NCBI GenBank assembly: GCA_947311825.1
Contig: CAMZLY010000199.1
Location: 1 to 34,235, forward strand
Origin: an uncultured bacterium
Lineage (GTDB): Bacteria > Verrucomicrobiota > Kiritimatiellia > UBA8416 > CAMZLY01
DNA: 34,235 bases
Direction: 5' to 3'
Part shown: one piece after another, positions 4,565 through 33,925 of the stretch
Layout of the letters: each line of letters begins with the position of its first letter
Position numbering within the stretch: the first letter of the stretch is position 1
Notes under the pieces: model-generated
What the model was told of the DNA's origin: nothing
Database searches by the model: none
The model's input: the letters and a program-made list of their open reading frames with translations, nothing else
Position numbers and translations under genes: made by a program

Positions 4565-5563
4565 ATGTTTAATAATATGAATAAACTTGGGCGAAATGAT
4601 CCATGCTGGTGTGGTAGTGGTAAAAAATATAAAAAATGCCATTTGGGGAAAGATAATGATAGAGAGTTATGCTCTGAGGCTCCTGTTGATGATGGTTCTT
4701 TTTATGTAGTTAGTCCTTCTATAAAGAAAGGAAATGTCACGCCTATGCGGGTTGTTCCTGTAAATATTCCGCATCCTATTTATGCAACAACAGGGAAAGG
4801 TGAGGGTAAGGGGCGTAAGCAGACTATTCTAAATGATGCAGAGCTGGCAATAATGCGCGAGACTTGTCGTGCAGCACGGCGAGTATTAGAAAAAGGGCTT
4901 GCTGCCGTTAAGCCGGGGATTACAACGGACGAAATAGACCTAGTTGTGCATGAAGCGTGTATTGCAGAGGGGGCGTATCCAAGTCCGTTAAATTATCATG
5001 GTTTTCCTAAAAGTGTATGTGTTTCCGTAAATGAGGTTATTTGTCATGGTATTCCCGATGATAGTCCTTTACGGGAAGGTGATATTGTTAATGTTGATGT
5101 TACTATTTATTTAAACGGTTTTCATGGCGACTGTTCAGAGACTGTTGCTGTTGGTGCAATTAATAATGGCTCGCAGGCTTTGATTGATACTACGCGCGAA
5201 TGTTTAAATATAGGTATAAGTGCAGCTAAGCCTGGTAATAGAATACGAGATATAGGAAGGGCTATACAAGTACATGCACATAATCATGGTTATAGTGTAG
5301 TTCAGGCGTATTGCGGACACGGAATAGGGAAAACATTTCATGCCGACCCTGTTATTCCGCATTTTTATGATAGAAAAGAACGTGGTAAAATAAAACCGGG
5401 TATGATTTTTACGATTGAACCTATGATTAGTATGGGGGAGTGGGATCATAAGGTTTGGGATGATGGTTGGACTGCGGTAACAATTGATAATAAGAGGAGT
5501 GCACAGTTTGAAAACACTATTCTTATAACGGAAGATGGGGCAGAGATTTTGACTAAGTTATAG
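4565..5563 (+). CDS. map: Type I methionine aminopeptidase with N-terminal SEC-C zinc motif
   Basis: A 332-residue protein that removes N-terminal methionine from new proteins. Residues 8-26 are a SEC-C motif (GRNDPCWCGSGKKYKKCH), a small zinc site found at the end of SecA and at the N-terminus of some MetAPs, where it may help ribosome or nascent-chain contact. A linker precedes the pita-bread domain (~85-332). All metal ligands are present: D178 (NVDVT), D189 (HGDCSET), H252 (GHGIG), E285 (FTIEPM) and E316 (QFENT), plus the substrate-contact histidines H161 and H259. The next in-frame ATG is four codons on. The gene is followed 62 bp later by the HIT gene in the same direction. Confidence 0.95.
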   Translation: MFNNMNKLGRNDPCWCGSGKKYKKCHLGKDNDRELCSEAPVDDGSFYVVSPSIKKGNVTPMRVVPVNIPHPIYATTGKGEGKGRKQTILNDAELAIMRETCRAARRVLEKGLAAVKPGITTDEIDLVVHEACIAEGAYPSPLNYHGFPKSVCVSVNEVICHGIPDDSPLREGDIVNVDVTIYLNGFHGDCSETVAVGAINNGSQALIDTTRECLNIGISAAKPGNRIRDIGRAIQVHAHNHGYSVVQAYCGHGIGKTFHADPVIPHFYDRKERGKIKPGMIFTIEPMISMGEWDHKVWDDGWTAVTIDNKRSAQFENTILITEDGAEILTKL

Positions 5564-28807: not shown

Positions 28808-28999
28808 ATGGAAAAAGTACTTAGTATAGAAAAAAATAATTCTAACGAAAAAGGTATTGATCTCACAAAAAACTATAGTGGAAATCAGAGGGTTTCAATG
28901 CTAGAAGATTTAAGACGACAGATTTCAAAGGTAACACAACATGAATATCCAAAACGACTTCGAAGAATTCTTGAGATTACTCGTCAAACACAAAGTTAA
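28808..28999 (+). CDS. Small protein encoded with a nucleotidyltransferase (putative module partner)
   Basis: 63 residues with no membrane segment. The recognisable part is the C-terminal half, SMLEDLRRQISKVTQHEYPKR followed by LRRILEITRQTQS: basic, probably helical, and resembling small proteins that I recall being encoded directly upstream of stand-alone nucleotidyltransferases. The last 59 bp overlap the nucleotidyltransferase gene in another frame, so translation is coupled. It has no HEPN motif (R-x4-6-H), so this is not a standard HEPN/MNT pair. The start has GGAG fifteen bases upstream. The molecular role is unknown, perhaps an antitoxin-like or DNA-binding partner. Confidence 0.6.
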   Translation: MEKVLSIEKNNSNEKGIDLTKNYSGNQRVSMLEDLRRQISKVTQHEYPKRLRRILEITRQTQS

Positions 29000-29408
29000 G
29001 TTTGTGCTTGTTGGAGGCTATGCTGTTGCTTTCCACGGCTATGTGCGGACCACTAAAGATATGGACATTTTCTTCTGTGACTCCGATGATAATATTGAAA
29101 AAATTATAAATACGCTACGTGATTTCAGTATCAATACAGATAATACTCTCAAAAAGGAACTACAAGAACCTGGTAGCATAATCAGAATGGGCATACCGCC
29201 TGTTATGATAGAAATGATAAATAGACTTAGCGGTATCTCATTTTCTGAAGTATGGGAACATCGTATTGCCGGAAAGTATGGTGATATTTCGGTAAATTAT
29301 ATTTCTTATAAAAACCTGCTGATTAATAAAAAAGCGGCTGGGCGACCCAAAGATCTTGCAGATGTTGATGAACTTGGCGGAAACCGCCCTCCAACCTTCA
29401 ACATTTAA
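28941..29408 (+). CDS. Nucleotidyltransferase (MNT/AbiEii-like, DUF6036-type)
   Basis: 155 residues. The nucleotidyltransferase core is clear: FVLVGGYAVAFHGYVRTTKDMDIFF gives the G25-G...H-G33 loop and metal pair D40-x-D42, and MIEMINRLSGISFSEVWEHRI supplies the third strand region. ISYKNLLINKKAAGRPKDLAD is the usual C-terminal helix pair of this group. Such enzymes transfer NMP groups to RNA or proteins, and several act in toxin-antitoxin or abortive-infection modules. The terminal GGNRPPTFNI is not typical and may be a read-out into adjoining DNA. It overlaps the 63-residue gene by 59 bp, and the pair is bounded by 68-bp direct repeats. Confidence 0.85.
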   Translation: MNIQNDFEEFLRLLVKHKVKFVLVGGYAVAFHGYVRTTKDMDIFFCDSDDNIEKIINTLRDFSINTDNTLKKELQEPGSIIRMGIPPVMIEMINRLSGISFSEVWEHRIAGKYGDISVNYISYKNLLINKKAAGRPKDLADVDELGGNRPPTFNI

Positions 29409-29597: not shown

Positions 29598-29644
29598 ATG
29601 TATATGCTGGAAACAATAAGAATTACAGCCTAATTCTCTGCACC

Positions 29645-29660
29645 TGTGAAAAAAATCACA
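29645..29660. promoter_or_regulatory. Operator 1 of the hyd operon (Rex- or CRP/FNR-like palindrome)
   Basis: TGTGAAAAAAATCACA is a perfect 5-6-5 inverted repeat (TGTGA-N6-TCACA), ending 7 bp before the -35. It fits the inner part of the Rex consensus (TTGTGA-N6-TCACAA) and equally the CRP-type site. Rex, an NADH/NAD+ sensor, is the more logical regulator for an NAD-linked hydrogenase. Confidence 0.7.
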
Positions 29661-29667
29661 CTTTATG

Positions 29668-29695
29668 TTGACATAATTACAATATCTGTTATCTT
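29668..29695 (+). promoter_or_regulatory. Promoter of the hydCBA operon
   Basis: A perfect -35 TTGACA (29668-29673), 16-bp spacer, and -10 TATCTT (29690-29695, 4 of 6). The predicted start is at about 29702, inside operator 2. Confidence 0.65.
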
Positions 29696-29700
29696 TCAGC

Positions 29701-29716
29701 TGTGTTTTTTTTCACA
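29701..29716. promoter_or_regulatory. Operator 2 of the hyd operon
   Basis: TGTGTTTTTTTTCACA; its reverse complement TGTGAAAAAAAACACA matches operator 1 at 15 of 16 positions. It covers the predicted transcription start, as expected for a repressor site. Its right half also belongs to the perfect hairpin CACAACCA-N7-TGGTTGTG (29713-29735) in the leader. Confidence 0.65.
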
Positions 29717-29775
29717 ACCAGAAGAAGTGGTTGTGTTTGCTAGTAGGCTCTTGGAGTTAATTAAGGAGAAATATA

Positions 29776-30306
29776 ATGTATGATGACTGTAGTGAGTGTC
29801 ATAAAGAACTGGATATTTTAGGTAATCTTCCAGAAAAACGTGCTGAACTTGAGGCGTATATTGAGTCTCTTCCGCTGGGAGATGATCGTGATAAGAACCG
29901 TGGATATTTGATTCAGGTCTTACATAAAGCACAGGGGATCTTTACTTATTTGCCGCAATGTATTCAGCTGTTTGTGGCTGATAAGCTTAAACTTCATCTT
30001 TCTGAAGTATATGGAGTTATTTCATTTTATTCATTTTTTACCGATACACCGGTAGGAAAATTTAAAATTAATGTCTGCATGGGAACTGCCTGCTTTGTTA
30101 AGGGGGCTGGTGCGGTACTTGATGAATTTAAGCGGTACCTTGATCTTGATGAGGGTGAAACGTCTGAAGATAGAAAATTCTCTCTGGGCGGCTTGCGTTG
30201 TGTTGGTGCGTGCAGTCTGGCACCGGTTGTTATGGTGAACGATAAGGTTTACGGTGGTGTAACCACAGATATGGTTCCTAACATTATTAACGAATGTAAA
30301 TTATAA
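29776..30306 (+). CDS. hydC: NuoE-like subunit of NAD-dependent [FeFe] hydrogenase (HydC)
   Basis: 176 residues. A four-helix N-terminal part is followed by a thioredoxin-like [2Fe-2S] domain with ligands C101 and C106 (VCMGTACFVKGA) and C142 and C146 (LRCVGACSLAPV), the C-x4-C...C-x3-C pattern of NuoE/HydC. LIQVLHKAQGIFTYLP and EVYGVISFYSFF are family hallmarks. In the heterotrimeric HydABC complex it relays electrons between the flavin subunit and the hydrogenase subunit. AAGGAG lies 8 bases before the ATG. It is the first gene of the operon, 9 bp before hydB. Confidence 0.94.
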   Translation: MYDDCSECHKELDILGNLPEKRAELEAYIESLPLGDDRDKNRGYLIQVLHKAQGIFTYLPQCIQLFVADKLKLHLSEVYGVISFYSFFTDTPVGKFKINVCMGTACFVKGAGAVLDEFKRYLDLDEGETSEDRKFSLGGLRCVGACSLAPVVMVNDKVYGGVTTDMVPNIINECKL

Positions 30307-30315
30307 GGATTTATT

Positions 30316-32154
30316 ATGATTGATTCTGCAAATAAACTTACTGAGTTGGCTAATGAGCTGAACGGTAAAGATAAAACTGATATTTCAATTCTTGTTTCGA
30401 TGGGAACTTGTGGTATTGCAGCCGGAACAACTCCGGTATTAGATAAACTTAAAGAAGAAGTAACTAAACAGGGGGCTGATAGCGAGATTAGTATTCTTGA
30501 AGTTGGCTGTATGGGGTTATGCCACAGTGAGCCAACAATTAAAGTTGTTGATAATAAAACTGGCGACTGTATGTTTTACGGTAACGTAAAGCCTGAAAAT
30601 GCTGAACATATTATTGCACGTAAAGCACCTAAGCCGGTTGCGGGTGTTGAAAGTATTGATAAGAATTGGTGCTATCCTGAAGAGGAAGATTGCGGCGATG
30701 CTTTACAAACGCGCATTGTTCTGAAGAATACAGGCGAGATTAATCCTGAGATAATTAATGATTACATTGCAAAATCCGGTTATCAGGCTTTAGCTAAAGT
30801 TTTAACAGAGTCTACGCCGGAAGCTGTTATAAAAGAGATTATTGAGTCTGGTCTTCGTGGCCGTGGTGGTGGTGGTTTCCCGACAGGGCGTAAGTGGAGT
30901 TTTGCGGCAGCCCAAGATAGCGAACAGAAGTATATGATTTGTAATGCTGATGAAGGTGACCCTGGTGCATTTATGGATCGTGCTGTTCTTGAAGGTGACC
31001 CACATGCGGTACTGGAAGCTATGGCGATTGGTGGTTATGCTATTGGTGCATCTGAAGGTGTTATTTATATTCGTGCAGAATATCCGTTGGCAATTAAGCG
31101 TTTAGAGATTGCTATTGCACAGGCCGAAGAACTTGGGTTGCTTGGAAAAAATATTTTAGGCACAGGTTTTAACTTCAACATTGAGCTTAAGTTCGGTGCC
31201 GGAGCATTTGTTTGTGGTGAAGAAACTGCATTGATTGCCTCTATTGAAGGTAAGCGCGGCGAACCGACATTCAAACCACCATTTCCCGCGGTATGCGGTC
31301 TTTGGGGTAAGCCGACAATTGTAAATAACGTTGAGACCTATGCAAATATACCGGCAATTATCCGTAATGGAGCTGCTTGGTTTAAGAAAATCGGTACAGA
31401 AAAATCATCTGGCACAAAAGTATTTGCACTGGCCGGTAAGGTTGATAAGGTTGGTCTAGTAGAAGTTCCAATGGGAACGACACTGCGAGATATTATCTTC
31501 GGATTAGGTAACGGCATAAAGGGCGGTAAAGAGTTTAAGGCTGTTCAGACCGGCGGACCATCCGGTGGATGTCTTACTAAAGAACGGCTAGATGCCAAGA
31601 TTGATTATGACACACTTGTTGCTTTAGGTTCTATGATGGGCTCTGGTGGTATGATTGTGATGGATGAAGATGACTGTATGGTTAATATTGCAAAGTTTTT
31701 CCTTGAGTTTACTCTTGATGAATCTTGTGGAAAATGTACACCGTGCCGTATCGGAAATAAACGTCTGCATGAGATGCTGGAAGATATATGTTCGGGTAAA
31801 GCTGATATTAGAACTTTCAATAAGCTAAAGACTCTATCTGGGGTAATCAAAGACACTGCACTTTGTGGATTAGGGCAGACTTCTCCGAATCCTGTTCTTT
31901 CTACAATCGTAAATTTTGAGGATGAATATCTTGCTCATGTAAATGAAAAAAAATGTCCGGCGGGCGTTTGTTCGAGTCTTATCTCGTATAAAGTCAATGA
32001 TGCTTGTGTTGGCTGTACACTGTGTGCACGTAACTGCCCTGTTCAGTGTATTTCAGGTGAAGCAAAAGGTGCACATTTGATTGACCAGGATAAATGTATT
32101 AAATGTGGTGTATGTTTCACCGCATGTAAATTCCATGCTATTGATAAAATATAA
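30316..32154 (+). CDS. hydB: NuoF-like FMN/NAD-binding subunit of [FeFe] hydrogenase (HydB)
   Basis: 612 residues. The N-terminal ~100 residues form a thioredoxin-like ferredoxin domain; I see three of its usual cysteines clearly (C32, C65, C69). The NuoF core carries the FMN/NAD loop GLRGRGGGGFPTGRKWSF (~179-196), CNADEGDPGAFMDR, GAGAYVCGEE-like GAGAFVCGEETAL, and the N3-type cluster SCGKCTPCRIG (~471) with CGLGQTSPNPV. The C-terminus adds two [4Fe-4S] motifs, CVGCTLCARNCPVQC and CIKCGVCFTACK. This is the layout of HydB in electron-bifurcating or NAD-dependent hydrogenases: it oxidises or reduces NAD(H) and probably ferredoxin. It is followed 34 bp later by hydA. Confidence 0.95.
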   Translation: MIDSANKLTELANELNGKDKTDISILVSMGTCGIAAGTTPVLDKLKEEVTKQGADSEISILEVGCMGLCHSEPTIKVVDNKTGDCMFYGNVKPENAEHIIARKAPKPVAGVESIDKNWCYPEEEDCGDALQTRIVLKNTGEINPEIINDYIAKSGYQALAKVLTESTPEAVIKEIIESGLRGRGGGGFPTGRKWSFAAAQDSEQKYMICNADEGDPGAFMDRAVLEGDPHAVLEAMAIGGYAIGASEGVIYIRAEYPLAIKRLEIAIAQAEELGLLGKNILGTGFNFNIELKFGAGAFVCGEETALIASIEGKRGEPTFKPPFPAVCGLWGKPTIVNNVETYANIPAIIRNGAAWFKKIGTEKSSGTKVFALAGKVDKVGLVEVPMGTTLRDIIFGLGNGIKGGKEFKAVQTGGPSGGCLTKERLDAKIDYDTLVALGSMMGSGGMIVMDEDDCMVNIAKFFLEFTLDESCGKCTPCRIGNKRLHEMLEDICSGKADIRTFNKLKTLSGVIKDTALCGLGQTSPNPVLSTIVNFEDEYLAHVNEKKCPAGVCSSLISYKVNDACVGCTLCARNCPVQCISGEAKGAHLIDQDKCIKCGVCFTACKFHAIDKI

Positions 32155-32188: not shown

Positions 32189-33925
32189 ATGATTAATTTA
32201 ATAATTAATAACACTAAGGTAGAAGCTGAAGAGGATGCAACCATTCTTGAAGCTGCTGCCACGATTGATATAAAGATACCGACTTTATGTCATTTGACTA
32301 TTGACTGTATTGATGTAGAACATCGTACTGGTTCATGCCGTATTTGTGTGGTTGAAGTTGAAGGACGCCGTAATCTTGCTCCGGCTTGCTGTACACCGGT
32401 GGCAGAGGGCATGGTTGTTAAAACTAATTCTATCCGTGCAATCAACGGACGTCGGACAATGTTGGACTTGTTGCTGTCTGATCATCCTAAAGAGTGTCTT
32501 ACTTGCGAAAAGAACGGACAGTGTCAGCTACAGGATCTGGCTTCTGAGTTTGACTTGCATCATCTTCTTTATACAGGTGAACAGTCAACGTATGATATTG
32601 ATTTGGCGAATAAGTCTATTGTTCGTGATCTGAATAAATGTATTATGTGTCGCCGTTGCGAAACTGCATGTAATGTTACTCAGACGGTAGGTGTACTTTC
32701 AGGAGTAGGGCGTGGCTTTAACGCTGTTGTTGGCCCGGCAAACTTAATGCCACTTGACGAAACAAAATGTACATTCTGCGGACAGTGCGTAACTGTATGT
32801 CCGGTAGGTGCATTAACTGCAATGAGTAGTCGATACCCTGTATGGGGAATGTTAAATGATCCTACCAAAACTGTAGTCGTGCAAACTGCTCCGGCTGTTC
32901 GTGTTGCTATTGGTGAGGAGTTTGGCATGGAGCCGGGAAGTATAGCGACAGGTAAGTTGGTAACATCTCTGCGTATGTTAGGATTTGATGCCGTATTTGA
33001 TACGGATTTTGCCGCAGACCTGACTATCATGGAAGAAACTACTGAGTTTATTGATCGCGTTAAGAAAAACGAGAATCTTCCGATTCTTACATCCTGTTGT
33101 CCGGGCTGGGTTAAGTTCTTTGAACATCAGTTTCCTGAATTAATCTATATGCCATCAACAGCAAGATCACCGCAGCAGATGTTTGGTGCAGTGGCCAAGA
33201 GTTACTATGCTGAAAAGATTGGCGTTAAGCGTGAAGATATAATCGTGGTATCAATTATGCCGTGTCTTGCTAAGAAGTATGAAGCAGCCAGAGATGAACT
33301 TAAAACTGACGGTATTCCTGATGTGGATGTAGTTCTTTCAACTCGGGAATTGGCCGATATGCTTAAAGAGGCTGGCATTGCCTTAGATAAAGTAGAGGAA
33401 TCAGAATATGATAGTCCTCTAGGTGAAGCTTCCGGTGCCGGTGTAATTTTTGGTGCTTCCGGTGGTGTGTTAGAAGCTGCACTTCGTACAGCTGCCGATT
33501 GGCTGACGGGCGAAGATGTACAAGAAATTGATTTTAAAGCAGTACGTGGACTTGAAGGTGTAAAAGAGGCTACAGTTAATGTAGCTGGTCTTGAGATTAA
33601 GGCTGCAATTACATCCGGTCTCGGAAACGCACGTAAAATATTAGAAAAAATTCACCGTGGTGAAGCTGAATATCATATTATTGAAATTATGGCATGTCCC
33701 GGTGGTTGTCTTAATGGTGGTGGTCAGCCATACTCGGCTCACGATAGTACTATACTGGAGAAACGTAAGAAAGCCATCTATACGGACGATAAAAATAACA
33801 AGATTCGTAAGTCACATCAGAATCCTGATATTATCAAGTTGTATGATGAGTATCTTACAGAGCCGGGTAGTCACCGTGCTCATGAGTTATTGCATACAGC
33901 ATATACTCCGCGTAAGTTTGACTAA
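32189..33925 (+). CDS. hydA: [FeFe] hydrogenase catalytic subunit (HydA)
   Basis: 578 residues. Order of domains: plant-type [2Fe-2S] (C34, C50, C53, C67); the His-Cys3 [4Fe-4S] site (H99, C103, C106, C112 in DHPKECLTCEKNGQC); two [4Fe-4S] clusters (CIMCRRCETACN and CTFCGQCVTVCPVG); then the H-cluster domain with all three signatures: L1 TSCCPGW (301-307), L2 MPCLAKKYEA (from 357), and L3 MACPGGCLNGGGQP (501-514). The last ~55 residues are the small-subunit domain ending YTPRKF. It reduces protons or oxidises H2. Together with HydB and HydC it is likely a cytosolic NAD-dependent, possibly ferredoxin-bifurcating, complex. AGGAG precedes the ATG. The maturases HydEFG are not in the window. Confidence 0.97.
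   Translation: MINLIINNTKVEAEEDATILEAAATIDIKIPTLCHLTIDCIDVEHRTGSCRICVVEVEGRRNLAPACCTPVAEGMVVKTNSIRAINGRRTMLDLLLSDHPKECLTCEKNGQCQLQDLASEFDLHHLLYTGEQSTYDIDLANKSIVRDLNKCIMCRRCETACNVTQTVGVLSGVGRGFNAVVGPANLMPLDETKCTFCGQCVTVCPVGALTAMSSRYPVWGMLNDPTKTVVVQTAPAVRVAIGEEFGMEPGSIATGKLVTSLRMLGFDAVFDTDFAADLTIMEETTEFIDRVKKNENLPILTSCCPGWVKFFEHQFPELIYMPSTARSPQQMFGAVAKSYYAEKIGVKREDIIVVSIMPCLAKKYEAARDELKTDGIPDVDVVLSTRELADMLKEAGIALDKVEESEYDSPLGEASGAGVIFGASGGVLEAALRTAADWLTGEDVQEIDFKAVRGLEGVKEATVNVAGLEIKAAITSGLGNARKILEKIHRGEAEYHIIEIMACPGGCLNGGGQPYSAHDSTILEKRKKAIYTDDKNNKIRKSHQNPDIIKLYDEYLTEPGSHRAHELLHTAYTPRKFD

Follow-up and report, generated by a model that had tools for sequence, protein, structure and literature searches.

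Twin palindromes framing an [FeFe] hydrogenase promoter as candidate Rex operators in an uncultured Kiritimatiellia bacterium

The promoter of an [FeFe] hydrogenase operon in an uncultured Kiritimatiellia bacterium is framed by two closely similar palindromes, one just upstream of the -35 hexamer and the other downstream of the -10 hexamer. On the basis of their sequence and of what lies downstream of their copies elsewhere, we propose that these palindromes are operators for the redox regulator Rex encoded on contig C182 of the same genome, a reading to which we assign a probability of about 0.85. They are candidate sites, and the features of the window (the whole stretch of 34,235 nucleotides that was analysed) are collected in Table 1 together with other sites of the genome.

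Twin palindromes around the hydrogenase promoter

The two operators match each other at 15 of 16 positions in inverted orientation, and their centres are 56 bp apart. The initial annotation had described such a pair bracketing the hydrogenase promoter, and the sequence comparison found it as stated. It had equated the spacing with about five helical turns; the distance in base pairs holds, and at 10.5 bp per turn it amounts to 5.33 turns. Between the operators, the promoter scan gives the -35/-10 pair a consensus score of 10/12. Transcription of hydC would start at about position 29702, which would place the centre of operator 1 near -49 and that of operator 2 near +7. The core TGTGA-N6-TCACA is perfect in operator 1 and has one mismatch in operator 2, where a T stands in place of an A in one half. 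At the level of this core, both sites conform to the Rex operator form TTGTGAA-N4-TTCACAA; at the outer T/A positions of the 18-bp Rex consensus, operator 1 has a C on each side. Operator 2 is the more degenerate member of both pairs of this genome, in the window and on contig C185.

The pair is unremarkable when up to three mismatches are allowed over the whole window (two sites seen for 1.13 expected). When no more than one mismatch to TGTGA-N6-TCACA is tolerated, 1 of 20,000 dinucleotide shuffles of the 367-bp intergenic region contained two sites. The twin palindromes are real and not a product of chance.

A sister species of the same genus (G001, 74% complete) holds the identical 16-mer of operator 1 and both promoter hexamers, TTGACA and TATCTT; the stretch of 54 bp that contains them has 90.7% identity to window positions 29644-29697. 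Its neighbouring purM aligns at 78.6%, and there is no significant blastn alignment between purM and this promoter stretch. The contig ends at the promoter, the position of operator 2 being beyond its end. No rex gene was found in this 74% complete genome, though the site is present. In the window, purM is separated from the hydrogenase promoter by a nucleotidyltransferase gene (DUF6036, weakly AbiEii-like; 28941-29408), which is unaligned to the sister species.

The genes downstream encode the subunits of an NADH-dependent hydrogenase. As a separate observation, HydC of the window is, among the matches listed, closest to that of a locus from a Lentisphaerota-labelled MAG (L026, 81% identity) and 64% identical to the best sampled members of its own order. 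This pattern, seen in the comparison of L026 and L111, could point to gene transfer or to MAGs with wrong labels. The host itself probably belongs to the Kiritimatiellota, since G120, a genome of its order, is the Kiritimatiellae MAG BS750m-G23; the locus L146 from contig C58 of G120 and L072 are identical over 5501 bp.

Table 1. Features of the window and other operator sites of the same genome
Feature	Position	Strand	Remarks
Operator 1, TGTGAAAAAAATCACA	29645-29660	.	7 bp 5' of the -35 hexamer
-35 hexamer, TTGACA	29668-29673	+	consensus scan; kept in the orthologous promoter of G001
-10 hexamer, TATCTT	29690-29695	+	16-nt spacer, TG preceding; kept in G001
Operator 2, TGTGTTTTTTTTCACA (minus strand reads TGTGAAAAAAAACACA)	29701-29716	.	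over the putative transcription start
Leader hairpin, 8-bp stem, CACAACCA-GAAGAAG-TGGTTGTG	29712-29734	+	overlaps the right half of operator 2
hydC-like gene, thioredoxin-like 2Fe-2S subunit (NuoE/HydC)	29776-30306	+	first gene of the operon; PF01257, E 1.9e-44
hydB-like gene, FMN/NADH-binding subunit	30316-32154	+	PF01512, PF10589
hydA, NADH-dependent [FeFe] hydrogenase, group A6	32189-33925	+	NF040763, 884 bits (cut-off 765)
Twin sites on C185, 55 bp apart			5' of genes for a 2Fe-2S ferredoxin, a hydrogenase-like PAS protein and a SpoIIE-type phosphatase, and of a hydrogenase-like gene
Site on C29			5' of a NifU-like gene and a GGGtGRT gene
Site on C38			5' of serC (class V aminotransferase)

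The rex gene and the other sites of the genome

The genome (2.50 Mb in 214 contigs, 88% complete) yields a single PF06971 match in the profile search (54.6 bits), which is a Rex protein of 211 residues encoded on C182. This protein reaches 199.5 bits with NF003995 (cut-off 126), and its PF06971 and PF02629 matches give it the winged-helix N terminus and the Rossmann NAD(H) domain of Rex. Against Rex proteins of solved structure in the PDB it scores 95-117 bits (best E 8e-33). Downstream of its gene, in the same orientation, lie hydG and hydE, which code for [FeFe] hydrogenase maturases, and the three genes appear to form one operon. A 16-mer identical to operator 1 is present at C182:3463-3478, 8 bp 5' of the TTGACA of rex-hydG-hydE, so that the same operator stands before rex itself, as in autoregulation.

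At most one mismatch to TGTGAANNNNTTCACA is found at seven places in the genome, compared with one for the reversed control. Five of the six places outside the window promoter precede hydrogenase-, rex-, GGGtGRT- or serC-linked genes. The sixth, on C108, is inside a coding frame and was set aside as a probable chance occurrence. The operator is shared by redox and fermentation genes, namely hydABC, rex-hydG-hydE, the C185 cluster, the GGGtGRT pair and serC. On C185, the identical 16-mer of operator 1 occurs in reverse orientation, and the N-terminal part of the hydrogenase-like gene product matches monomeric [FeFe] hydrogenase. The promoters of rex, the GGGtGRT pair and serC (C182, C29 and C38) have a site in the position of operator 1 alone, with no second near-consensus operator. 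When two mismatches are allowed, the genome shows no excess (81 sites, compared with 93 for the reversed control); because of this, weak sites are not trustworthy and only one-mismatch sites were used. Of a different order is the observation that the C185 cluster under twin operators (L018, 5404-9500) looks like a sensory hydrogenase module.

Recurrence of the sites in related genomes

Twin operators also occur in other genomes. They precede rex-response regulator-hydC in G091 and G131, at 55 bp in each, and a response regulator/kinase-hydG operon of G131, at 58 bp; a further pair lies 57 bp apart before hydC in L027, where the promoter is less clear. Operator 2 has a perfect core in the rex-response regulator-hydC promoters of G091 and G131. 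By eye, operator 1 ends 6-8 bp 5' of the -35 hexamer in the window, C182, C185, C29, G091, both promoters of G131 and G001, and it abuts the -35 in C38, while operator 2 begins 3-5 bp 3' of the -10 hexamer in the paired promoters except L027. A search of 345 genomes of the class for the twin-site pattern was positive in seven, with one match in the reversed control. The matches at hyd or rex promoters were in G000, the genome of the window (two places), G091 and G131. Those in G244, G246 and G247 were set aside as one common palindromic array, and that in G339 was set aside because no rex or hyd gene was recognised among the surrounding frames. The array, an observation in its own right, is a series of palindromes resembling TGTGATAATCATCACA that lies in the space separating two genes (L160, 1490-1575, in G244, and also in G246 and G247, all of one genus); no rex or hyd gene was recognised in its neighbourhood in G244.

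The occurrence of the site follows the type of Rex. The fetched loci contain 76 distinct rex genes, of which our own and seven relatives score at least 156 bits and the 68 others at most 123 bits. With the dividing line at 140 bits, which was set after the scores had been seen, a perfect TGTGA-N6-TCACA lies within 300 bp 5' of 7/8 rex genes of our type and of 0/68 of the others, and the reversed controls are at 0 in both groups. In a tree of 48 Rex proteins, ours groups with those of G091 and G131 (support 0.98). More broadly, a sample of 146 genomes of the class contains a rex match in 102 and a HydC/NuoE-like match in 123. Among the 102 genomes with rex, this gene is within 8 kb of a HydC/NuoE-like gene in at least 53 and within 1.5 kb in at least 43, counts in which the NuoE-like genes are not necessarily hydrogenase genes. 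Rex had been the regulator favoured in the initial annotation, which had advised looking for a rex gene and for the same site before other genes. Both were found, the latter before rex-hydG-hydE and on C185, C29 and C38, the site before rex being identical; the absence of Rex from the genome, which would have told against this assignment, was looked into, and Rex is present.

Other observations limit how far the pattern extends. A perfect site 5' of hydC-like genes was found only in L027 among 53 loci (L048 offered only 106 bp, and L061 and L067 were left out), and L026, which has the closest HydC (81% identity), has none there. G349, G363, G364 and G369 have the site before rex and lack it before hydABC, and G346, the genome of L027, has no perfect site before rex. 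One-mismatch sites exceed the reversed control in G000 (7:1), G131 (13:4), G363 (12:2), G364 (16:3), G369 (9:1) and G349 (8:4), with little or no excess in G001 (5:5), G091 (3:2), G061 (5:4), G081 (5:4) and G346 (3:5). An excess is also found in G120 (11:2), G040 (6:1), G071 (6:1) and G028 (6:0), in which our Rex type is not established. It is therefore the positions of the sites, and not their raw count alone, that we take as evidence for Rex. Scoring half-sites in 20 rex/hydC loci from the class yielded one site of the TGTGA type (L140) and two of the TCGTTAA type (L147 and L148).

Several of these loci have further features. Another palindrome (ATAGATATTTTTTTATCTAT or TTGATATTTTTTTATCAA) lies 5' of hydC in L044, L045, L079 and L049, from Victivallales-type genomes without a TGTGA site at that place; it is possibly the site of a different regulator. 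A response-regulator-like gene is found between rex and hydC in L140 (G091) and L141 (G131), at about 1890-2260, and a response regulator/histidine kinase precedes hydG in G131 (L217). These genes may indicate a second input to hydrogenase control in G091 and G131. In L027, two perfect operator palindromes in inverted order lie a few bases apart 5' of hydC (4912-4948) and fold into a hairpin of 17 bp where the leader begins. A site of the same type precedes a formate/nitrite transporter gene in G349 (C135; L221, position 1984). Binding of Staphylococcus aureus Rex before nirC has been reported, according to excerpts of that study (PMC2883068).

Mode of action and comparison with known Rex systems

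We picture the regulation as follows. In an NAD+-rich state, a Rex dimer would occupy operator 1, just 5' of the -35 hexamer, and a second dimer would sit on operator 2, over the start site. With the core promoter framed by Rex on both sides, RNA polymerase would be kept out. A rise in NADH would release Rex, hydC-hydB-hydA would be made, and the NADH-dependent hydrogenase would then dispose of electrons as H2. The same Rex would control its own operon with the maturase genes hydG and hydE and the second hydrogenase-like cluster, and probably also the GGGtGRT pair and serC. The promoters that have only operator 1 suggest a role for this position even without operator 2. We also put forward, tentatively and at less than even odds, a fixed promoter clamp, used by a separate lineage of Rex that belongs to Kiritimatiellota and Lentisphaerota and is genetically linked to [FeFe] hydrogenase genes. 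Two dimers, at the -35 and at the start site, would act jointly at hydrogenase, rex and hydG promoters to give a sharp NADH switch, and promoters with a single upstream operator would respond more gradually.

How the two sites are used can be read in other ways. One operator may be the functional one, either operator 2 as a roadblock at the start site or operator 1 at the -35, the other being a relic or a weak auxiliary. The rex, GGGtGRT and serC promoters, which do with the upstream position, and the degeneracy of operator 2 in our genome speak for this reading; we nevertheless find it somewhat doubtful, as G091 and G131 have the two sites in the same places, with a perfect core in operator 2. 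Alternatively, Rex bound at both operators might close a DNA loop or form a higher-order complex that depends on helical phase, and the initial annotation had mentioned looping. The spacing does stay within 55-58 bp in six promoters (55, 55, 55, 56, 57 and 58), which follows from the -35 and -10 hexamers lying between the sites. These distances correspond to 5.24-5.5 turns at 10.5 bp per turn, never near an integer, and drift over about 100 degrees of helical phase, not the constant phase of repression by a loop. The gap between the operators, of 39-42 bp, is short and stiff for a DNA loop, and the pair is not required at the rex, C29 and C38 promoters. Looping is thus an unlikely explanation, and the helical phase speaks against that part of the annotation.

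The identity of the binding protein and the nature of the second palindrome also need to be considered. TGTGA-N6-TCACA is the classical core of CRP sites, and the operators of CRP/FNR regulators have this core in common with those of Rex, so the 16-mer alone cannot separate the two families. The initial annotation had named CRP/FNR-type regulators as fitting the palindrome, and our searches do not bear out a binding protein of this family, such as a sensor resembling FNR or HcpR. PF00027 has no match in this 88% complete genome, in a search that was positive in 10/14 control genomes, and the three PF13545 matches are weak and all below the curated cut-off; no regulator of that family was detected. 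Furthermore, the sites track one Rex type, and operator 1 would be centred at about -49, which is not a usual position for a CRP activator. We therefore hold such a regulator to be very improbable. Even less credit goes to the idea that the second palindrome serves chiefly as a hairpin of the RNA leader, in stability or attenuation, and not as an operator. The perfect 8-bp hairpin described as merging with the second site is there, and its stem overlaps operator 2; its folding energy is ordinary (z = -1.08; RNAfold, 300 shuffles). The inverted operators of L027 do fold into a long hairpin (z = -5.67), whereas four of the five leaders fold about like their shuffles (z -0.54 to -1.12). A scan of the window leader for an attenuator or terminator gave no terminator-like site (0), and the element that recurs is the DNA palindrome itself. 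The leader hairpin of the window is probably incidental, and we retain the reading of both palindromes as candidate Rex operators.

Assigning a regulator and a signal to H2 production would be of value in this little-studied and mostly uncultured group of anaerobes. The proposed regulon is small and testable, comprising the hydrogenase, its maturases, rex and the second hydrogenase-like cluster. As the promoter-framing pair recurs, it provides well-defined natural examples in which to study whether the response to NADH becomes sharper with two Rex sites. Our literature search, in open-licence papers, found no study of Rex in Verrucomicrobia, Lentisphaerae or Kiritimatiellota, and no report of Rex looping or of paired operators of a comparable kind.

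Known Rex operators include sites upstream of hydrogenase and maturase genes. In Thermotoga maritima, according to excerpts of the structural report, a Rex dimer binds its operator with NAD+, and NADH releases it (PMC8836258). Our Rex is a clear relative of the solved Rex proteins, though of a type without a solved structure. As for S. aureus, the excerpted study gives the consensus TTGTGAAW4TTCACAA, which contains the TGTGA-N6-TCACA core, and places Rex sites in or beside promoters, where Rex is thought to block the polymerase (PMC2883068). There, ldh1 has two Rex sites and gives two shifted complexes; as far as these excerpts go, this is one gene with two sites, whereas here a pair framing the promoter at 55-58 bp is found at several hydrogenase-related operons. 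The closest parallel is Caldicellulosiruptor bescii, a Firmicute in which, in the portions of the report considered here, Rex binds upstream of genes for FeFe hydrogenase and for a class V aminotransferase, of hydG and of rex itself, and NADH disrupts the binding (PMC6391272). Those portions describe no operator pairs framing promoters, and in our genome, in contrast, rex shares one apparent operon with hydG and hydE. Nevertheless, the list read here from the sites alone (hydABC, rex-hydG-hydE and serC) is nearly the same as that of C. bescii, as given in those portions.
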